Assembly: GCF_000152945.2 (NCBI RefSeq)
Contig: NC_020830.1
Coordinates: 806,001 to 870,000, forward strand
Reading direction: 5' to 3'
Length of the DNA stretch: 64,000 nucleotides
DNA from: Polaribacter sp. MED152
GTDB taxonomy: Bacteria > Bacteroidota > Bacteroidia > Flavobacteriales > Flavobacteriaceae
Program-made: the position numbers and the translations under genes
Notes under the pieces: generated by a model
What the model was told of the DNA's origin: nothing
Databases searched by the model: none
What the model saw: only the letters and a program-made list of their open reading frames with translations
In this document: positions 20,202 to 38,330 of the stretch, in pieces
Layout of the letters: each line of letters starts with the position of its first letter
Position numbering within the stretch: position 1 is the stretch's first letter

Positions 20202-21077
20202 ATGATAATGGCAATAGAAACTGCAGTACTTCCAGAAAGACCAAAAAAACCAAAATGGTTACGTGTAAAACTACCTGTTGGTAAGAAATATACAGAATTA
20301 AGAGGTTTAGTAGATAAATACAAACTAAATACCATCTGTACAAGTGGTAGTTGTCCAAACATGGGCGAATGTTGGGGAGAAGGAACTGCAACCTTTATGA
20401 TATTAGGAAATATTTGTACACGTTCTTGTGGGTTTTGTGGTGTCAAAACTGGTAGACCAGACACAGTTGAATGGGATGAGCCAGAAAAAGTAGCAAGATC
20501 TATTAAGTTAATGGGCATTAAGCATGCTGTAATTACCTCTGTAGATAGAGATGATTTAAAAGATGGTGGTTCTATCATTTGGGCAGAAACTGTAGATGCT
20601 ATTCGCAGAGCAAACCCAAATACAACTTTAGAAACCCTTATTCCCGATTTTCAAGGTAACACTAAACAAATAGATAGAATTATAGAAGTTGCTCCTGAAG
20701 TAGTTTCTCATAATATGGAAACAGTTCGCAGATTAACTAGAGAAGTGAGAATACAAGCTAAATATGATAGAAGTTTAGGTGTTTTAAAATACTTGAAAGA
20801 AAATGGTATGAGAACCAAAACTGGTTTAATGCTAGGTTTGGGTGAAAAGGAAGAGGAAGTAATACAAACAATGAAAGATTTAAGAGCTGTAAATTGTGAT
20901 ATAGTTACTATTGGTCAATACCTACAGCCTACAAAAAAACATCTTCCAGTGAAAGAGTTTATTACTCCAGAACAATTTAAAAAATATGAAACTTTAGGTT
21001 TAGAAATGGGCTTTATGTATGTAGAAAGTGGTGCTTTAGTGCGTTCTTCTTACAAAGCTCATAAACATGCTAAATAA
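20202..21077 (+). CDS. lipA: lipoyl synthase
   Basis: Radical SAM enzyme that inserts two sulfurs into protein-bound octanoyl groups to make lipoyl cofactor. The auxiliary cluster is Cys 46, Cys 51 and Cys 57 ([12 protein letters not shown]), and the SAM cluster is Cys 72, Cys 76 and Cys 79 (CTRSCGFC). The C-terminal Ser ligand region is [11 protein letters not shown]. Starts at 20202 and 20208 are both in frame and indistinguishable. The window also holds a dihydrolipoamide dehydrogenase (31240), a downstream user of lipoyl groups. Confidence 0.96.
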
Positions 21078-21106
21078 TTAGCAAAAAAATTAAATTCAAA
21101 TAAAGT

Positions 21107-21123
21107 TTGGCACAGAGTTTGAA
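21107..21123 (+). promoter_or_regulatory. possible sigma-54 type site TTGGCAC-N7-TGA
   Basis: TTGGCACAGAGTTTGAA has GG and the -12 G at the exact spacing of the -24/-12 consensus, although GC is GA here. It lies 30 nt after lipA. A transcript from about 21133 would end at the terminator at 21191-21222, giving a small RNA of about 90 nt. It overlaps the left arm of an imperfect long hairpin (21093-21104 pairs with 21170-21181). Confidence 0.3.
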
Positions 21124-21190
21124 TATAATAAAATGAAAGCAACGTAGTAAACTGTTTTCATTGTGTAAATTTATTTGAATTAGTTGATTT

Positions 21191-21222
21191 AAAAAACCAC
21201 CTTAAAAGGTGGTTTTTTTTTT
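21191..21222. terminator. strong bidirectional terminator after lipA
   Basis: AAAACCACCTT/AAGGTGGTTTT stem with a short AA loop and a ten-T run; the A-run on the left also makes it usable from the minus strand. Confidence 0.88.
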
Positions 21223-21236
21223 GTGTAATTAAAGCG

Positions 21237-21405
21237 AAAAAAAAATCGCCTATCTTTTAAATTCTAGACGATTTTTTATAACATATTATAAATCCCCCAA
21301 TTCGTAATAGTTATGAAACAAATAAACAACTTTATTGAGTTTTTCGTCAAAATAGCCGATGAACGACTCTTAAGTGTCGACGAATGACATTTTACCTTCG
21401 ATAAT
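21237..21405 (-). repeat. structured repeat, unit 1 (divergent)
   Basis: The most diverged of three units. It keeps the invariant core TAAATCCCCCAATTCG (21289-21304) inside an imperfect stem (ATAAC...GTTAT plus TATTA...TAATA, one bulge), the AACAACTTTATT block and GACGAAT. Its flanking hairpin (AATCGCCTA...TAGACGATT, 21243-21273) has a different sequence from the other units, yet is in the same place and has a T-run on the minus strand. The TAAATTTG-like promoter is not preserved here. Confidence 0.7.
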
Positions 21406-21458
21406 CATTTTTAGAAAACTTTAACACTTTTTAAATAATAACTATCTTAAAACAAAAA

Positions 21459-21574
21459 AACACCTAAAAAAAATTTAGGTGCATTTTGATAACTTAATAT
21501 AAATCCCCCAATTCGCAAAAGTTATCTGATTCAAAGAAACAACTTTATTAAGTTTAAAAATGTAAGTGCTCGCC
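21459..21574 (-). ncRNA. candidate small RNA, unit 2
   Basis: Predicted transcript from about seven nt after TAAATTTG to the minus-strand T-run, roughly 115-125 nt. It holds a hairpin with an invariant G5 loop (21488-21526) and then an intrinsic terminator. No credible reading frame is conserved with unit 3. Strand choice rests on the promoter box and on the T-runs, which are much better on the minus strand. Expression is not shown. Confidence 0.5.
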
Positions 21575-21579
21575 TATAA

Positions 21580-21587
21580 CAAATTTA
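21580..21587 (-). promoter_or_regulatory. putative -7 box of repeat unit 2
   Basis: The minus strand reads TAAATTTG, a perfect TAnnTTTG. Unit 3 has TAAATCTG at the same place (21880-21887), one base off, so unit 2 may be the stronger promoter. No TTG -33 element is evident. Confidence 0.4.
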
Positions 21588-21642
21588 CTATAGACGAATG
21601 GAAAATAAGTTTCGACTACCTTTATTTACAGAAAGTATATAA

Positions 21643-21671
21643 CAAAAAAACGTCTAAATATAATTTAGACG
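21643..21671 (-). terminator. hairpin terminator at the upstream edge of unit 2
   Basis: CGTCTAAAT/ATTTAGACG (nine pairs, ATA loop) followed on the minus strand by seven T. It would insulate unit 2 from transcription coming from unit 3. Confidence 0.65.
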
Positions 21672-21757
21672 TTTAATTTTTGCTCATCCAATGGATGTTT
21701 TATTTTTTAGGTTAGTTTTATTAAATTATATTGTTTAAGAACTTTTTTAAAATAAAA

Positions 21758-21874
21758 AACACCTAAAATAAATTTTAGGTGCATTTTGATAACTTATTAT
21801 AAATCCCCCAATTCGTAAAAGTTATCTGGTTCAAAGAAACAACTTTATTGTGTTTAAAAATTTACGTGTTCGCC
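21758..21874 (-). ncRNA. candidate small RNA, unit 3
   Basis: Predicted minus-strand RNA equivalent to that of unit 2, with the same G5 loop hairpin and terminator. Its promoter box TAAATCTG deviates by one base from TAnnTTTG, so expression may be weaker or may rely on read-through. Confidence 0.42.
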
Positions 21875-21942
21875 TATAACAGATTTACTGTAGACGAATA
21901 GAAAGTAAGTTTCGACTACCACTATTTACAGAAAGTATAAAA

Positions 21943-21972
21943 CAAAAAAAACGTCTAAATATAATTTAGACG
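21943..21972 (-). terminator. hairpin terminator between CBS gene and unit 3
   Basis: CGTCTAAAT/ATTTAGACG stem with an ATA loop, followed on the minus strand by eight T. It is placed about 140 nt past the stop of the CBS-domain gene. Confidence 0.65.
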
Positions 21973-22108
21973 TTCCGTTTTTGCATCTCTAAAATGCATC
22001 TTCTACTTTTTAACCTTGTTCAAATTTATGACATTTAACGATGTTAAAAATCATTTATTCGACCATCAGCATCTAATTATCGACCAAGGGTATAATTATC
22101 GAGATTTA

Positions 22109-23479
22109 CTAAATTGAACTAATTACATCGTACTTTGTTACAATGTGATAATTACCATTTTCTAAATCTACCAATACTGCTTCATTTTCTTTAGAAATCA
22201 GTTTAGATATTGCATCTATCTTTGCAGATTTCTTAACTATTGGATATGGTTTACCCATAATGTCTTTAATAGGTTTATCTGCAATCTCTTTATCTGTAAT
22301 GAAACTTCTTAATAAATCTGTTTCATCTATTGAGCCTACAAAACCTTCTGCGTCTTTCACTGGAATTTGAGAAATCTTAAATTCCTTCATTCTTTCTATA
22401 GCATGCGAAACCAATTCTTCTGTTTGTGCAGTTACTAAAGGTTTATTTTCATGATTTTTAATTAAATCAGCTGCTGTTTTTACCTCTTCTTCCAAAAATC
22501 CACGATCACGCATCCAATCATCATTAAACATTTTACCTACATATCTACTTCCATGATCATGAAATAAAACAACCACAACATCATCTTTGGTAAAATTATC
22601 TTTTAATTGTAATAAACCTTTTATGGCTGCTCCAGCTGAATTACCCAAAAACATGCCTTCTTCTTTTGCTAATTTCTGTGTGTAAATTGCAGCATCTTTG
22701 TCTGTAACTTTTGTAAAACCATCAATAACATCAAAGTTCACATTTTTTGGTAAAATATCCTCACCTATACCTTCTGTGATGTAAGGGTAAATTTCATTTT
22801 CATCGAAAATTCCTGTTTCATGGTATTTTTTAAATACAGAACCATATGTATCTATCCCCCAAACTTTAACTGTTGTACCAGCTTCTTTGGCTTTCATCTT
22901 TAAATAAGAACCTACACCAGAAATTGTACCTCCTGTACCAACACCAACTACAAAATGGGTTACTTTACCTTCTGTTTGTTCCCAAATTTCTGGACCTGTA
23001 CTTTGAAAGTGGGCTTTACAGTTGCTTGGATTATCATATTGATTTACGTACCAAGAATTAGGAGTTTCTTCTCCCAATCTTTTAGAAACAGAATAATAAG
23101 ATCTTGGATCTGATGGATCTACATTTGTAGGACAAACTACAACCTCTGCTCCTACAGCTCTTAAAATATCCATCTTTTCTTTAGACTGCTTATCAGACAT
23201 AACAAAAACACATTTGTAACCTCTAACTATTGCTGCTAAAGCCAAACCCATACCTGTATTTCCAGAAGTACCTTCTATAATGGTTCCTCCAGGTTTTAAC
23301 CTTCCATCTGCTTCTGCATCTAAAATCATTTGTAAGGCCATTCTATCTTTTACAGAATTTCCTGGATTAAAAGTTTCATATTTTGATAATACCAAACAAG
23401 GTAATTCCGCTGTTAATTTGTTCAACTTAACAAGTGGTGTATTTCCTATTGTTTCTAATATATTTTCTGCGTAATTCAT
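22109..23479 (-). CDS. cystathionine beta-synthase-type PLP enzyme with CBS domains
   Basis: A fold-type II PLP enzyme that condenses a serine-type substrate with a thiol (homocysteine or sulfide), fused to a C-terminal CBS-domain pair (about 335-455) that may sense a nucleotide. The PLP lysine is in NPGNSVKDRMA near residue 43. The phosphate and substrate loops are EGTSGNTGMGLA near 70 and GVGTGGTISGVG near 180. The ATG at 23479 is preferred over 23488 because the TAACTTTG-type box at 23497-23504 leaves too little leader for the latter. Cystathionine versus cysteine synthase activity is not settled by sequence. Confidence 0.9.
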   Translation of the reverse strand: MNYAENILETIGNTPLVKLNKLTAELPCLVLSKYETFNPGNSVKDRMALQMILDAEADGRLKPGGTIIEGTSGNTGMGLALAAIVRGYKCVFVMSDKQSKEKMDILRAVGAEVVVCPTNVDPSDPRSYYSVSKRLGEETPNSWYVNQYDNPSNCKAHFQSTGPEIWEQTEGKVTHFVVGVGTGGTISGVGSYLKMKAKEAGTTVKVWGIDTYGSVFKKYHETGIFDENEIYPYITEGIGEDILPKNVNFDVIDGFTKVTDKDAAIYTQKLAKEEGMFLGNSAGAAIKGLLQLKDNFTKDDVVVVLFHDHGSRYVGKMFNDDWMRDRGFLEEEVKTAADLIKNHENKPLVTAQTEELVSHAIERMKEFKISQIPVKDAEGFVGSIDETDLLRSFITDKEIADKPIKDIMGKPYPIVKKSAKIDAISKLISKENEAVLVDLENGNYHIVTKYDVISSI

Positions 23480-23496
23480 CTTATTCATTTATAGAA

Positions 23497-32690: not shown

Positions 32691-32701
32691 TAAATCCCCC
32701 A
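32691..32701 (+). promoter_or_regulatory. TAAATCCCCCA leader motif
   Basis: An 11-nt sequence identical to the core in all three repeats at 21289, 21500 and 21800. As mRNA it is perfectly complementary to the G5 loop of the candidate minus-strand small RNAs. A shared protein-binding site is the main alternative reading. Confidence 0.5.
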
Positions 32702-32736: not shown

Positions 32737-33876
32737 ATGGGTTTCGTTGAGTGGTTTCTTTCTTTTGTCTATAAGATAAAGACCTTCCCCTTAATAATAC
32801 AAATAACAATTGTATTAACAATTGTATTAACAATTGTATTCATTGTTGCAACCATTGCATTGATGATTACTATTGGTACAATTAGAAGAAGACATAACAG
32901 ATTACAGAAAACACTAAAAAATAGTGTTCCTGAAATTGTTAAATTGTTTTCAGAAATTTTGTTTACAGAAAAAGAATTTTCAGAACAAGAGATATTCTCA
33001 GATTTTGAAGAAGTTGTAGATGAGGTTAATAGGGAGTCTTTAGATATTGCTGTAGATGTTTTGGTCGAATTTAAAAACGACCATAGAGAATCAGAAAAAT
33101 ATCCTTTAATTATTAGTGCATTAGGCATTGTAGAACATTTGGAGCGTAAATTCGACTCACGTTCTAACAAAGAGAAAATTGACGCCTTTCAAGAAGCTTT
33201 TGTATTAGATTTAAATAAATTTGATTCAAAAGTATTACGTTATGCTTACAGTAAAAATAAAGTAATACGTAAAGAAGCAAGAAACTCTTACCTAGCACTT
33301 AGTTCTAATGATCCTTACCGATTTTTTGACGAATTTGATCGTGATTTAAGTAAGTGGGATGAAATAGAATTAATGCAATACCTTAAACTACAAAAAGAAA
33401 GAGGTAACTTAGAAGGGTTAGGTAAATGGATTAACTATTCTAAAAACGATTCTTTAGTAGTTTTTCTTATTAAAATGGTTGGTTATTTCAATCAAAAAGG
33501 TATTGACGAAATTTTGTTAGAAAAGCTAGAAGATGAAAATGCCTTGGTAAGAGCCCAGGCTATTTTAACATTAGGAGAATTGCATATTTCTGAAACAGAA
33601 CAAGATTTAATTGACAGATATTATACTGAGCCAGAAATTTGTCAAGTGGCTATTGTAAAAACCATTAGAAAATTTAATAGTGGTAAATCTTTAATGTTCT
33701 TAAATGAAATATTTAAAGAATCTAACAATACAGATACTAAGAAAATTATTGCTGAGGCAATCTTAAATTATAGTTATGAAGGTAAAATTGCCTTTCAAAA
33801 TTTAAAAAGTACACTAAAGGGTTTCGAACTTACCATTTTGAAACATGTAGAAACTCCGTTAATTAAATATAAATAG
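32737..33876 (+). CDS. membrane-anchored HEAT-repeat protein
   Basis: A 379-residue protein with one N-terminal helix (about 19-47) and a long cytoplasmic helical part with HEAT-like repeats. The clearest repeat is DENALVRAQAILTLGELHIS near residue 267. The membrane helix is coded in part by three copies of a 12-bp unit (32805-32840). The gene starts the operon and its stop abuts the ATG of the glycosyltransferase. It may scaffold the synthase, in the position that PgaD-like subunits hold in other systems; that role is inference. Confidence 0.75.
   Translation: MGFVEWFLSFVYKIKTFPLIIQITIVLTIVLTIVFIVATIALMITIGTIRRRHNRLQKTLKNSVPEIVKLFSEILFTEKEFSEQEIFSDFEEVVDEVNRESLDIAVDVLVEFKNDHRESEKYPLIISALGIVEHLERKFDSRSNKEKIDAFQEAFVLDLNKFDSKVLRYAYSKNKVIRKEARNSYLALSSNDPYRFFDEFDRDLSKWDEIELMQYLKLQKERGNLEGLGKWINYSKNDSLVVFLIKMVGYFNQKGIDEILLEKLEDENALVRAQAILTLGELHISETEQDLIDRYYTEPEICQVAIVKTIRKFNSGKSLMFLNEIFKESNNTDTKKIIAEAILNYSYEGKIAFQNLKSTLKGFELTILKHVETPLIKYK
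32805..32840 (+). repeat. three perfect 12-bp tandem repeats
   Basis: The unit AACAATTGTATT occurs three times in a row inside the membrane-helix coding region and is read as repeated Thr-Ile-Val-Leu. Unit loss or gain keeps the frame and would change helix length by four residues (about one turn). Confidence 0.9.
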
Positions 33877-35373
33877 ATGTTTGAAATTTTTGTAAAAGTT
33901 TACGAGTATTTTATATTTTTCTATGCTACTGCATTAATTCTTAGCTACATAGTATTAGCTATCTTTTCTTTTATTGCCATCAACAGGTATAAAAGTTACA
34001 ATACAGATATAGATGATGAAGAATTATTAAGCTCTCACCTTGCACCAGGAATTTCGGTGATTGCACCTGCATATAATGAAGAAAAAACAATTATTGTAAA
34101 TGTAAAATCATTATTAACCTTAAACTACCCATTATTTGAGGTAATTATTGTTAATGATGGTAGTAAAGACAAAACATTAGATTTATTAATAGAGGAGTTC
34201 GATTTAGTAGAAGCACCATTTGCCTACACAGAAAAAATTAAAACAAAACCTTACAAAAGAACCTTTAAATCTACCAATCCAAAATACGACATTCTTACTA
34301 TTGTAGATAAACACAATGGTGGTACTAAAGCAGATGCCTTTAATGCAGGTTTAAATGCATCCGTATTTCCATATTATTTAAACACAGATGTAGACTGTAT
34401 TTTAGCAAGAAACACACTAACTAAAATGATTAAGCCCATTTTAAATGCAAAAGTTAGGGTAATTGCTGTAGGTGCAACTTTAAGAATGTCTAACAATTGT
34501 GAAATTGAAGAAGGTGTAATTACAAGAGTAAGACCACCAAAAGCTTTAATTCCACGTTTTCAAGAATTAGAATACATTCGTTCGTATTTGTTAGGAAAAA
34601 TGGGTTGGGAGTTAATTAACTCTGTACCTAATGTTTCTGGAGGATTAGGAATGTTTGATAAAGAAATAGCCATTAAAGCAGGTGGTTATGGTGCAGACTC
34701 TCATGCAGAAGACATGGATATGATGACACGTATGGCTGCACATATGATGAACAACAGACTTGATTATAAAATAGGATATATACCTCTTTCTTGTTGTTGG
34801 ACAGAAGGTCCACCAAATTTACAGATTTTAGGACGTCAACGAACAAGATGGGCCAGTGGATTATTTCAAATGTTTAGTGAACATAGAAAAATACTTTTTA
34901 ACCCAGGCTACAAAAGACTAGGTATGATCACATTTCCATACATTTTTATATTTGAGTTTTTAGCGCCAATTATAGAAGCATTTGGAATTTTATTCTCTAT
35001 ATTTTTATTATTCTATGGTTACGTAAACTGGACGTTTGCACCATTAATTTTATTATACTCATACACGTTTGCATTAATGATTTCATCAATTGTAATTATT
35101 TGGGATCAAATGACGTTTAAATATTACAACACAACAAGAGAAGTACTCACGCTGTTTTTAACAGCATTTATAGAACCCATAATTTATCATCCATTAATTA
35201 TGTTCTTCTCATTAAAAGGTTATTTCAGTTTTATTACATCTCAAGAACTTGCTTGGGGTACAATGACAAGAAAAGGATTTGACAATGATGACAAGAACAA
35301 AAAACAAGATGGAGATGGAAAGAGTTCAGGAGATAGCAGTGCTTCTAAAGATTTTGAACCAATAAAAACATAA
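33877..35373 (+). CDS. processive GT2 glycosyltransferase, PgaC/cellulose-synthase-like
   Basis: A 498-residue inner-membrane synthase with one N-terminal helix (about 8-35), a GT-A domain and about four C-terminal helices (about 350-455). All processive-GT2 marks are seen: VIAPAYNEEKT near residue 60, VNDGSKD near 92, the DxD in YLNTDVDC near 168, the catalytic HAEDMDM near 270 and the QxxRW motif in GRQRTRWASG near 320. It should polymerise a beta-linked glycan from UDP-sugar while passing it through the membrane. It resembles poly-GlcNAc and NfrB/YaiP synthases and sits directly before a TPR-YaiO outer-membrane protein. Confidence 0.88.
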   Translation: MFEIFVKVYEYFIFFYATALILSYIVLAIFSFIAINRYKSYNTDIDDEELLSSHLAPGISVIAPAYNEEKTIIVNVKSLLTLNYPLFEVIIVNDGSKDKTLDLLIEEFDLVEAPFAYTEKIKTKPYKRTFKSTNPKYDILTIVDKHNGGTKADAFNAGLNASVFPYYLNTDVDCILARNTLTKMIKPILNAKVRVIAVGATLRMSNNCEIEEGVITRVRPPKALIPRFQELEYIRSYLLGKMGWELINSVPNVSGGLGMFDKEIAIKAGGYGADSHAEDMDMMTRMAAHMMNNRLDYKIGYIPLSCCWTEGPPNLQILGRQRTRWASGLFQMFSEHRKILFNPGYKRLGMITFPYIFIFEFLAPIIEAFGILFSIFLLFYGYVNWTFAPLILLYSYTFALMISSIVIIWDQMTFKYYNTTREVLTLFLTAFIEPIIYHPLIMFFSLKGYFSFITSQELAWGTMTRKGFDNDDKNKKQDGDGKSSGDSSASKDFEPIKT

Positions 35374-35393
35374 GTTACATAGTTTATTCAATT

Positions 35394-38330
35394 ATGAAAA
35401 TAAATAAATCTATAGGTATTTTAATTGTGATGTTATTATCACAACTAAATATACAGGCCCAAGAAATATATGATTCTTCGGATTTATATTTTGAAAACGC
35501 AAAAGCCAGTATTGCCGAAGAAAATTTTACAAGAGCTGCCAAATTAAGTTGGAGAGGATTACAATTAGCACCTGATGATTTGGATTTAAAGACCCTTCTT
35601 GGTGCTGCAAATCTGCAATTGGGTAGATATGATACTGCTAGATGGGTATTAAGACAGGTATATGAAAAAAGACCAAAAAATACAGATATCTTAAAGTACT
35701 TAGTAAATATTGAACAAACTACGCAAAGATATTCTGATGCTATTTGTTTTGTGAACGAACTTTTAGAAATTACTCCATACTCTAGAGGTTGGCACAGGCG
35801 TAAAATTGCCATTTATAAAGAAATGGGTAATTTCGAAGAAGCAGAAAGAGCTTTAAAACGTATTTATCAAATTTACCCTAATGATAGTGAATTAAAAGAA
35901 GAATATAATTACATAATGATTGGTGATGGTGATGAAGCCATTAATAGTAAAAATTATGAAGAAGCCAGTGAAATTTATAAAACCATAATTACCAATACTC
36001 CAGAAAACAAAGATGCGTATATAGGTATAATTAGAAACGAAATGCAAAAGGGTAACCCTGAAGCAGCTTTACAATATACCAATAGATCATTATTAGAATT
36101 ACCTTTAGATAGAGAACTGGTTGAAAAGAAAATAGGTTTATTGGAAGCCTTAGGCAGGCATGAAGAGGCTATTGTTTATATAGAATCTAAACCAATCAAA
36201 GACGCTTTTCCTGATATTTATAAAAATACAAGACCTTATTTAATGCAGCAATCTGCAGATTTTAATGAGTATAATGATCCTTATGAAATCAATAAAAAAT
36301 TGGCAGAAACTGGTAATTCTGTTGCCCTAGATTATGTTATAAAAAATGCTTTAGGTAAGGGTTATTATGTAGATGCTGAGTATTTTTTAAATATCGCCTT
36401 AAAAAGAAGTCCAAACTCTAAAGACTATTTGATTAAACAAATGGAGCTTTATAAAGCTACTCTTAATACTGAAGAATACAACAAAGCAGTTTTAGAATTA
36501 CATGAAAAATTCCCAACAGATACAGATATTACTTATGCCTACAATAAGTTAATGTATGATACTGCTAAGAATTATGTAGCAAGCAATCAAGACCAATTAG
36601 CATTACCAATTTTTGAAGAGTTAGTGTCATCACCAGATTTTCAAAAAGAAGCTGAACAACAGATTTACGGTATTTATATTTCTCAACAAAAATATGATGA
36701 AGCTACAGATCAAATAGACAAATTAATAGGTTTAGACCCAAACAATCCAGATTTTCTAAGAAGAAAATCTACTTTGTATCAAGAAATGGAATTGTTTGAT
36801 GATGCCTTGGAAATCACTAGAAATTTAGAGCAAAACTATCCTTTAAATCAAACTTACCCAGCTTTATATGTAGATCAGATTGAAGCTTATGCCACTTATT
36901 TAATGAGAGAACAAAGGTATAGAGCTGTAATACCAGTTGTTGAAGATGGGTTATCTAGAGAAAATAATAACAAAAGATTATTAGATATAGCTATTAATGC
37001 TGCTTCTGCTATACCAGATTATGAAAAAGGAATCAATTATGGTTTAAGTGCTTTAAGTTTTTATCCTAACAACAAAAATTTTAAACTTAAATTATCTAAT
37101 TTATATTCTCAAAATCAAGAATATGCAAAAGCAAAAGGGGTTTTAGATACTTTAAGAACAACTTATATTTACGATAGAAAAATTAAAAATGCTTTAGCTG
37201 AAGTACTATTTTACAGAGCAAAAGCGCAGGAAGAAGATGGTTTGGTAGAAGAAGCTTTAGTAAATTACGATTCTGCTGTTTCTTTAAATCCAGATGATAG
37301 AGGTTCTTTAATGAGAATGGTTAATTTACATATTACTCAAAAACCTAGTAATGAATCTTTAGAATTTATAAATGAAAAATTAGAGGAAAGACCAGATGAT
37401 AATTTCCTAAAATATAAAAAAGGTATTGTTTTTGAATTGTTAAAAGAATACGATTCTGCTTACTACTATCAGAAATTTAGAGAAATAGACAATCCTTTTG
37501 AAAAGCAAGAATGGAACTTAGTTCTAGAAACACTTAGAGCTGCACAACTTAAAAATCAAATTGCTGCAACCTACTTGCAAGCAACCTCAGATTCTATTGC
37601 ATTTAGTACCTCTTTAGCCAGTTTAAACTATAGTAGGGAATACACTAAAATGACTTATGGTGCAGACATTAATTATGCTGCAAGAACCTCAGGAGTTGGT
37701 GTTCAAGGTGGAGTAAATGTATCAAGAATTTTTACGGAAACTATTTACGCTGACGTTGGTTTATTAGTAGGAACACGTTTTTTTCCGAAGTTTAAACTAT
37801 ATGGAAATGCGTATAAAGGTTTCAAATCTGGCTATGAAGCTCAAGTTGGGCTAAGTTTTGCAAGATTACAGAATGATCAGAACTATTTAACCTTAAGTCT
37901 TGGAGGCTCTAGAACTTGGGAAGATATTTGGGTACAAGCAAGGCTCTCCTTCTCTCCTACTTCTGTTCCTTTTGTAGACAACACAACCATACCATCTACA
38001 ACCACATTTCAAAGCTTTCTCTATACCAATGTTATGGTTCAAGCACGGATAAATGTAAACGCAAGAAAAGATTATTTCTCTGTAATTGTTTCAGGTGGTA
38101 GTGCTCCATTTGACCAGCAGTTAGAGTTTCAAGATAATACCTTCTTAAACTTTACAAATGTAATGGTTGGTGCTGGTTATATGTATCATATGACACCAAG
38201 ATCATCATTATTGGTAAATGGAACGTGGATTAACTTCTTAAGTAACCAAACTACAAGCAACCAAGTTGTATTAGATCAAATTTATACCAATCAATACAAT
38301 TTATCTGTTTCGTTTATTACTAGATTTTAA
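35394..38330 (+). CDS. TPR protein with C-terminal YaiO-type outer-membrane barrel
   Basis: A 978-residue exported protein with a signal peptide (about 1-22, ending IQAQE), some 15-20 TPR-like helical repeats (about 30-720) and a C-terminal beta-barrel of YaiO type. The barrel covers about residues 745-978 and ends in the aromatic FITRF. The layout matches PgaA and NfrA, in which TPRs guide a polysaccharide to an outer-membrane pore. It lies 20 nt after the GT2 gene. Export of the glycan made by that GT2 is the most likely task. Confidence 0.87.
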   Translation: MKINKSIGILIVMLLSQLNIQAQEIYDSSDLYFENAKASIAEENFTRAAKLSWRGLQLAPDDLDLKTLLGAANLQLGRYDTARWVLRQVYEKRPKNTDILKYLVNIEQTTQRYSDAICFVNELLEITPYSRGWHRRKIAIYKEMGNFEEAERALKRIYQIYPNDSELKEEYNYIMIGDGDEAINSKNYEEASEIYKTIITNTPENKDAYIGIIRNEMQKGNPEAALQYTNRSLLELPLDRELVEKKIGLLEALGRHEEAIVYIESKPIKDAFPDIYKNTRPYLMQQSADFNEYNDPYEINKKLAETGNSVALDYVIKNALGKGYYVDAEYFLNIALKRSPNSKDYLIKQMELYKATLNTEEYNKAVLELHEKFPTDTDITYAYNKLMYDTAKNYVASNQDQLALPIFEELVSSPDFQKEAEQQIYGIYISQQKYDEATDQIDKLIGLDPNNPDFLRRKSTLYQEMELFDDALEITRNLEQNYPLNQTYPALYVDQIEAYATYLMREQRYRAVIPVVEDGLSRENNNKRLLDIAINAASAIPDYEKGINYGLSALSFYPNNKNFKLKLSNLYSQNQEYAKAKGVLDTLRTTYIYDRKIKNALAEVLFYRAKAQEEDGLVEEALVNYDSAVSLNPDDRGSLMRMVNLHITQKPSNESLEFINEKLEERPDDNFLKYKKGIVFELLKEYDSAYYYQKFREIDNPFEKQEWNLVLETLRAAQLKNQIAATYLQATSDSIAFSTSLASLNYSREYTKMTYGADINYAARTSGVGVQGGVNVSRIFTETIYADVGLLVGTRFFPKFKLYGNAYKGFKSGYEAQVGLSFARLQNDQNYLTLSLGGSRTWEDIWVQARLSFSPTSVPFVDNTTIPSTTTFQSFLYTNVMVQARINVNARKDYFSVIVSGGSAPFDQQLEFQDNTFLNFTNVMVGAGYMYHMTPRSSLLVNGTWINFLSNQTTSNQVVLDQIYTNQYNLSVSFITRF

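Follow-up and report, generated by a model that had tools for sequence, protein, structure and literature searches.

A tandem array of candidate small RNA genes with a shared G-rich loop in Polaribacter sp. MED152 and its putative LytTR control

Known multicopy sRNAs and the array next to lipA

The Qrr small RNAs (sRNAs) of Vibrio, of which there are several with the same loop, read out a single phosphorelay under the control of sigma-54 and LuxO. The csRNAs (Ccn RNAs) of Streptococcus pneumoniae are governed by CiaR, which is not a LytTR regulator, and carry seeds complementary to G-rich ribosome-binding sites. Five homologous csRNAs answer to this one response regulator (PMC4507080, PMC11478796). 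In Bacteroides thetaiotaomicron, FopS and GibS are multicopy paralogous sRNAs with a shared seed and their own terminators; the seed of the 14 FopS RNAs lies in a single-stranded 5′ stretch, and their promoters are of the canonical sigma-ABfr type, with no further regulator known (PMC11697453). For Rfp18 of Flavobacterium psychrophilum, the third stem-loop is the predicted pairing region (PMC9723704).

Here, we analysed a 64,000-nt stretch of the genome of Polaribacter sp. MED152 (the window; positions 806,001–870,000 of NC_020830.1), in which a three-unit array of candidate sRNA genes on the minus strand is flanked by lipA (20202–21077, plus strand) and a gene for a PALP-CBS protein (22109–23488, minus strand). 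The Polaribacter family to which these units belong resembles Qrr in comprising multiple sRNAs with the same loop, but Qrr control by sigma-54 and LuxO sets the two apart. As in the case of the csRNAs, several homologous sRNAs would stand under one response regulator; csRNA seeds, however, target G-rich sites, whereas in the Polaribacter family the RNA itself carries the G run. The Rfam csRNA model (RF02379), which has a gathering score of 57, reaches 28.7 bits, and does so at the lipA terminator rather than in the array. Unlike FopS, the Polaribacter units have a predicted seed in a closed hairpin loop and a 21-bp direct-repeat operator, and in all three window units the G run sits at the hairpin tip rather than at the seed position of FopS and GibS. 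Rfp18 is a flavobacterial sRNA that is likewise predicted to pair through a stem-loop. Finally, the promoters controlled by CoxC, RcoM and other LytTR regulators carry operators built, as here, of direct repeats with a distance of about two helical turns; in the cases described, they govern protein genes (PMC11347149), whereas the Polaribacter operators precede putative sRNA genes.

The lipA product scores above the Pfam cut-off for Radical_SAM and just below that for LIAS_N, and between lipA and the PALP-CBS gene there is no open reading frame of 60 aa or longer with an ATG, GTG or TTG start. The initial annotation had described a gene-free stretch with three tandem minus-strand units at 21237–21983, and the analysis of reading frames, repeats and folds bears this out. 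Units 2 and 3 recur with a period of exactly 300 bp and differ at 15 of 170 positions, as had been stated, their likeness being 88% across 215 nt. Unit 1 is indeed a diverged copy, which shares a 57-nt block with unit 2 at an offset of 211 bp. The core TAAATCCCCCAATTCG is present in all three, at 21289, 21500 and 21800.

On the minus strand, each unit forms a hairpin that bears the G run at the tip, followed by a terminator hairpin and a T-run, with minimum free energies (MFE) of −22.0, −20.7 and −19.1 kcal/mol for units 3, 2 and 1. The corresponding z-scores are −5.8 (21751–21827), −4.5 (21451–21527) and −5.3 (21237–21314), and none of 200 shuffles folded as well as any of the units. The seed hairpins occupy 21788–21826 in unit 3 (G5 at 21805–21809), 21488–21526 in unit 2 (G5 at 21505–21509) and 21278–21314 in unit 1 (G5 at 21294–21298); the hairpin model R1, described below, scores them at 54.5, 46.3 and 48.8 bits, respectively, all three being training rows of that model. 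An exposed G5 loop had been proposed, and four of the five G are unpaired in the MFE structures. The intrinsic terminators, recognized by sequence and fold, lie at 21752–21783 in unit 3 (CACCTAAAA..TTTTAGGTG and a T-run), 21452–21483 in unit 2 and 21237–21277 in unit 1. Folding thus confirms that a hairpin with a minus-strand T-run stands 3′ of every unit and that the unit 1 terminator, the stem sequence of which is unlike that of units 2 and 3, has kept its pairing. A T-run terminator directly 3′ of a structured RNA, the layout of Rho-independent sRNA genes, is found in the window as well as in relatives. Two further minus-strand hairpins resemble terminators: one 5′ of unit 3 (21945–21976, CGTCTAAAT..ATTTAGACG), noted by sequence reading and repeat comparison, which perhaps insulates unit 3 from the PALP-CBS gene, and its repeat between units 3 and 2 (21645–21675).

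The Bacteroidota −7 consensus is TAnnTTTG. Elements of this kind are read on the minus strand as GTTGTTTCTTTG in unit 3 (21832–21843), where the TTTG spacing recurs across related units, and in unit 2 (21532–21543), and as GTTGTTTATTTG in unit 1 (21319–21330). The annotation of the units as minus-strand small RNAs therefore holds with respect to kind, by sequence and fold, but not to the length of about 120 nt; because the spacing-conserved TTTG stands just before the hairpin, about 75 nt is more likely. Likewise, the promoter sequences TAAATTTG and TAAATCTG proposed for units 2 and 3 fall inside the operator repeats, and TAAATTTG is off the recurring distance. The absence of a described RNA family was corroborated, none of 4227 Rfam families reaching its gathering score across the whole window; in the interval 21080–22110, all 43 matches to Rfam 15 at E ≤ 10 were below the gathering score. 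Judged from their sequence, the three units are likely to be real, transcribed minus-strand sRNA genes.

A hairpin family dispersed in Polaribacter

Thirty-five hairpins could be aligned without gaps, and the resulting model R1 was limited to the hairpin because MAFFT alignment of hairpin plus terminator misregistered the terminators. The family hairpin consists of an inner stem of 8 bp, a single bulged base on the 3′ side and an outer stem; a search with the loop alone found the identical loop elsewhere in other stems. R1 matches 86 of 166 Polaribacter genomes at E ≤ 0.01 (table count) and 114 at E ≤ 0.5, with E calculated per genome, about two chance genomes expected among the 166 at the former threshold and chance matches expected at the latter. 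Five places were found in the MED152 genome itself, namely, the three window units, 2077992 (plus strand) and 1984931 (minus strand). The array is one site of this dispersed family of putative Polaribacter sRNAs.

R1 was also run against 397 sampled genomes of the bacterial family, at least three of which are from Polaribacter itself. No genome of another genus matched at E ≤ 0.01, whereas four did so at E ≤ 0.05; R1 runs over 40 genomes used stricter filters, with which weak members may be missed. Three of these four matches (L194, L195 and L197) look by eye like coding sequence and have no terminator on the 3′ side. The fourth, in a different genus of the family (L196, 1501–1542, minus strand), carries an isolated G5 hairpin with a terminator and may be a real member outside Polaribacter. 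Among named genomes, an exact 18-mer search returned two Polaribacter and five other records; the Hyunsoonleella match, inspected by eye, is without hairpin or terminator.

For the comparison of units, a set of 107 was assembled from 118 rows by removing five rows that repeated places already included (L163, L176), the four from other genera and two with identical upstream ends; the set is not a random one, many tandem loci having been chosen on purpose. Tandem arrays of two or three units, 174–316 bp apart, are found at 16 of the fetched loci. The loop TTGGGGGATT is exact in 96 of the 107 units, a constancy that is partly by construction because the loop had served to find the training rows of R1; even so, searching with the model recovered 11 units with variants such as TAGGGGATT or TGGGGAATT.

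Across changes in the stem, pairing is kept in 72.4% of 544 cells, compared to 60.6% in shuffled and 35–52% in slid alignments. Cells with changes on both sides number 85 versus 45.8 in shuffles, a count that none of 500 shuffles reached, and such changes affect 13 of the 16 pairs, although 29 of 500 shuffles equal the latter count. Pairing is weak in the outer part of the stem, where as many as 19 of 34 rows may be unpaired at a given position. Homologues that lose the pairing while keeping the sequence would speak against a structured RNA, and the opposite was observed, the loop being kept with other, still pairing stems, albeit among rows chosen for their stems. The MFE fold of the type D RNA of MED152 (L098; types are defined below) has the G run paired.

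Because the rows used for covariation had been picked for having stems, 94 sites that carry the loop sequence were put to two tests independent of the stem. In the first, the 52 strong-stem sites include 34 with a strict terminator on the 3′ side, and the 42 sites lacking such a stem include seven (p = 1.7e-6, a value that, like the one given below, is too small because sites from related genomes are not independent), with no such difference in the 5′ control zone (11 of 52 versus 8 of 42). The same counts bear on the strand. A functional transcript from the plus strand, whether a C-rich-loop RNA or an extension of lipA at its 3′ end, would be consistent with the good fold of that strand (z = −6.8) and with the T-run on both sides of unit 1. 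However, read on the G strand throughout, 34 of the 52 strong-stem sites have a terminator at the 3′ end compared to 11 in the 5′ zone, the operator, TTTG, hairpin and T-run of the window units share one direction, and lipA ends at its own strong terminator (21191–21222), so that a plus-strand function is very improbable.

Two- or three-unit arrays adjoin lipA and/or the PALP-CBS gene in nine further Polaribacter genomes (G024, G047, G123, G072, G009, G096, G090, G004 and G006). A DNA search of 58 Polaribacter genomes recovered three copies at the same locus in G024 and two in G047; G123 has two. Loci at this position (L204, L205, L207, L210, L212 and L229, compared with L001) hold two or three units, with stems that differ between species. 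Such variation in unit number, together with the divergence of the stems, suggests repeated tandem duplication or gene conversion. The many copies, tandem arrays and AT-rich intergenic sites would also fit a selfish or duplication-prone DNA repeat of the REP or MITE kind with no RNA function. Nevertheless, the stems and terminators vary in sequence between unit types around a constant loop, and synteny with LytTR genes or with the lipA/PALP-CBS position is kept, leaving the repeat explanation with the smallest probability of those considered here.

The interval between lipA and the array contains, on the plus strand (21086–21222), the sequence TTGGCAC-N4/5-TTG, which we take to be a sigma-54-like motif, together with conserved sequence around AACTGTTTTCATTGTGTAAATT and a strong terminator. 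These elements recur in six of the six genomes looked at, in more diverged form in L229, making the interval a candidate for a separate plus-strand sRNA.

Direct-repeat operators and neighbouring LytTR genes

LytTR regulators are common in Bacteroidota. Direct repeats with the half-sites 21 bp apart precede all three window units and many related ones, an arrangement expected of a LytTR-regulated promoter. On the minus strand of the window, the half-sites are at 21907–21922 and 21886–21901 for unit 3 (operator 21886–21922), 21607–21622 and 21586–21601 for unit 2 (21586–21622), and 21372–21387 and 21351–21366 for unit 1 (21351–21387). With the position weight matrix of the B class, these score 20.2, 21.9 and 30.2, respectively, values reached by none of 200 shuffles in each case, whereas the score of the A motif was reached by fractions of 0.86, 0.88 and 0.12 of the shuffles for units 3, 2 and 1. 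By eye, a third and weaker copy is present near 21865–21880 in unit 3 and near 21565–21580 in unit 2.

Four unit types were defined by neighbour and motif. Type A units carry ACCATTTATACA twice and are mostly divergent from a REC-LytTR gene; type B units, with two or three copies of CCATTCATCGAAACTT, lie 3′ of another REC-LytTR gene; type C comprises the units at the lipA/PALP-CBS position, with the B motif; and type D units, 3′ of a gene for a LytTR protein with a hydrophobic N-terminal part, carry TTCCCATTTATCCCAA and a looser copy about 30 bp on. The spacing of 21 bp was imposed in the EM motif fit, but the following counts are free of that: among the 107 upstream regions (180 nt each), 16 contain two copies of CCATT with a spacing of exactly 21 bp, compared to a mean of 0.03 in shuffles, and 21 contain CATT in the same arrangement, compared to a mean of 0.47. 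Offset 21 also gives the top self-match in the pooled B/C, the A and the unclassed groups, although not in the six group D units, and in the pooled B/C group identity peaks at offsets of both 21 and 42. In 33 of 34 A units, TTTG starts 27–30 nt past the operator; it does so at 27–30 or, one repeat more, 48–51 nt in 13 of 19 B units and 11 of 18 scored C units, six of the 24 C units having been left out of this count for a low operator score. These six score below 8 with the B motif, and there is no convincing repeat in L205 and L207.

A LytTR gene, recognized with a profile built from seven genes beside family units, is the nearest 5′ gene in 55 of the 107 units, which represent 51 of 85 loci; gene and unit share a strand in 30 cases and are divergent in 25. 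The nearest 5′ gene is not a LytTR gene in the other 52, including the three window units. All six neighbouring regulators examined match Pfam PF04397. In the second of the stem-independent tests, 17 of the 34 sites that have both hairpin and terminator have a LytTR gene no more than 1 kb away, compared to 4 of the 60 remaining sites (p = 2.6e-6, subject to the same non-independence) and none of 26 control loci. In MED152, a REC-LytTR gene precedes the type B sRNA, and ahead of this gene are reading frames that look HPt-like and REC-like by eye; the type D sRNA follows the gene for a LytTR protein of 293 aa.

The B motif, trained exclusively on 19 upstream regions of Polaribacter sRNAs, also recurs outside the genus: of 29 loci from other genera, 24 have it on the 3′ side of the orthologous LytTR gene, the 29 being the best-matching loci fetched out of 80 other-genus genomes with a match. 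With the paralogue of MED152 itself (498677–499384), which is followed by the motif as well, the total is 25 of 30 loci; the A motif passes in seven of the 30. In the other-genus loci read by eye, the B motif stands before apparent protein genes, which suggests that the sRNA genes may have taken over an older LytTR operator.

The absence of a LytTR neighbour in the window would be explained if another factor that binds direct repeats controlled real sRNAs and LytTR genes were merely frequent neighbours. Against this, LytTR genes of three types stand beside units of three types, each with its own repeat motif, one of these motifs follows the LytTR orthologue in other genera too, and the canonical LytTR site is a pair of 9-bp direct repeats with a spacing of 10–13 bp (PMC11347149). 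Control by an unrelated factor is therefore improbable, and LytTR control of the family sRNAs appears likely. For the window array, the most likely regulator, given its half-site class ATTCATCGA, would be the REC-LytTR protein encoded at 2077187–2077891 or its paralogue at 498677–499384.

Candidate targets and a model for the array

The window itself contains a candidate target. On its plus strand, at 32694–32701, the C-rich sequence ATCCCCCA lies in a 5′ UTR about 36 nt before an ATG at 32737, and was singled out by conservation and duplex prediction. Three genes follow (32737–38330, plus strand; Pfam and reading frames), encoding a TM-HEAT-like protein, a family-2 glycosyltransferase and a TPR/YaiO-barrel protein; the HEAT_2 match of the first is just under the Pfam cut-off. 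The spacing of the genes implies a single operon, which looks like one for polysaccharide synthesis and export. All 15 orthologous leaders, which remain of 17 protein hits after removal of two with 33–34% identity, have a C-rich site at about the same place, in the form UCCC[C/U]CA in 12, UCCCCAA in two and GCCCUCA in one. For the leader in the window, the duplex with the loop reaches −19.2 kcal/mol, which none of 200 shuffles matched; the duplex beats shuffles at 0.05 or better in 11 of the 15 leaders but not in the remaining four. Since a clear orthologue of the first gene occurs in only 15 of 88 Polaribacter genomes, this operon is neither a universal nor the sole target.

C-rich complements also precede a gene for an alpha/beta hydrolase (L087) and another whose small product carries a T9SS sorting domain (L102), and these two sites and that of the 32737 leader are all conserved in the close relative G024; for the site in L094, there is no counterpart among the 16 sites of G024. 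The number of GGGGGATT matches in the MED152 genome, 16 versus 12 for the reversed pattern, is uninformative as a count alone. Targeting of start codons as a general rule was rejected, since, across 166 genomes, the pattern AAATCCCCC-N4-14-ATG did not exceed its reversed control in frequency.

Elements with three C5 sites occur in five of 166 genomes and in none with the reversed control. That of MED152, near 2391709 (L100, 1431–1545, minus strand), holds the sites in a possible stem followed by a terminator-like hairpin, as does its conserved counterpart in G024 (L287), and is complementary to the G5 loop; in MED152, a gene for an ABC-type ATPase, identified by eye, comes next. The z-score of its fold is −2.7, with 2 of 200 shuffles folding as well. 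In G009 and G053, CCCCCA is repeated between genes for a NarL-type response regulator and a lipoprotein-like protein (L068, 1414–1545, minus strand; L074), and G096 (L067) has a similar triple. A different repeat, AAATCCCCCAAGGGATTTTCGTATG, is unrelated: it accounts for nearly all listed places among the 40 matches of the start-codon pattern in G008 (contigs C13 and C15) and for four among the matches listed for G052.

The constant loop could alternatively bind a protein. GGA in a hairpin loop is the CsrA motif. If the RNAs were real and LytTR-controlled but their loops bound a protein of the CsrA or RRM kind, the array would titrate it in the manner of CsrB-type RNAs, which accords with the GGA in the family loop, with the strong conservation, partly by construction, of the loop, its closing pairs and the 3′ bulge, and with the lack of enrichment of C-rich sites at start codons. 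By contrast, a titration role would not account for the C-rich site that is present in all 15 operon leaders and, in the single relative used for comparison, ahead of two more genes, or for the triple C5 elements that have no match in the reversed control. Titration is unlikely, if less so than the other alternatives above, and the sequences somewhat favour the loop as an antisense seed; that the array sRNAs act on the 32737 operon in particular is possible, at a level of confidence short of even.

Taken together, our reading, to which we assign a probability of about two in three, is that of a LytTR-driven array of sRNAs of about 75 nt that would act in trans via the shared G-rich loop. Each unit would consist, from 5′ to 3′, of a LytTR-type operator, the Bacteroidota TTTG element, a hairpin with UUGGGGGAUU at the tip and, last, an intrinsic terminator, and the three units would be separately promoted and terminated on the minus strand, each giving an RNA with an estimated length of about 75 nt. 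The structure, the family, the operator repeats, the adjacency to LytTR genes and the conservation of the C-rich site are computed results, whereas we infer transcription of the units, activation rather than repression, base-pairing and the direction of the effect on targets. A LytTR response regulator would most likely activate those copies whose operators it recognizes, and the G-rich loop would serve as a seed that pairs in trans with C-rich 5′ UTR sites such as UCCC[C/U]CA, for instance, in the leader of the polysaccharide-type operon at 32737. Tandem copies would raise the dose and the speed of the response.

A broader version, in which the seed is common to several pathways, is more tentative, and we rate it slightly below an even chance. 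At least three distinct LytTR pathways, namely, a REC-LytTR protein encoded divergently from the sRNA, a co-directional REC-LytTR protein and a LytTR protein with a hydrophobic N-terminal part, would each control an sRNA of its own. These sRNAs would differ in stem and operator yet share the G5 loop, so that separate signals would be brought together on a single group of C-rich leaders, and their genes would have taken over an older operator. In certain species, the complementary triple-C5 RNA, present in a stem and followed by a terminator, would be a target or decoy.

Multicopy sRNAs are already known, both under a response regulator, as in the case of the csRNAs (PMC4507080, PMC11478796), and in Bacteroides, as in the case of FopS (PMC11697453). 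A search of mainly open-access literature found no published link between LytTR regulators and sRNAs in Bacteroidota, the two closest papers included (PMC5395568, PMC10057207). Three features seem to be new: the connection to LytTR regulators, a G-rich seed within a hairpin, and a single loop on which LytTR regulators of different types would converge. The near-constant loop on varying stems separates the part under selection, the seed, from its scaffold. Gram-positive sRNAs use C-rich loops, and the mRNAs of Bacteroidota mostly lack a Shine-Dalgarno sequence, because of which G-rich seeds could be used freely in this phylum; the Polaribacter family, with its G-rich loop, mirrors the Gram-positive logic. 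It is also a ready system for study: copies are numerous, operators are clear, the seed hardly varies, and the window itself offers a candidate target. If the reading is true, several signals could act on common target genes.
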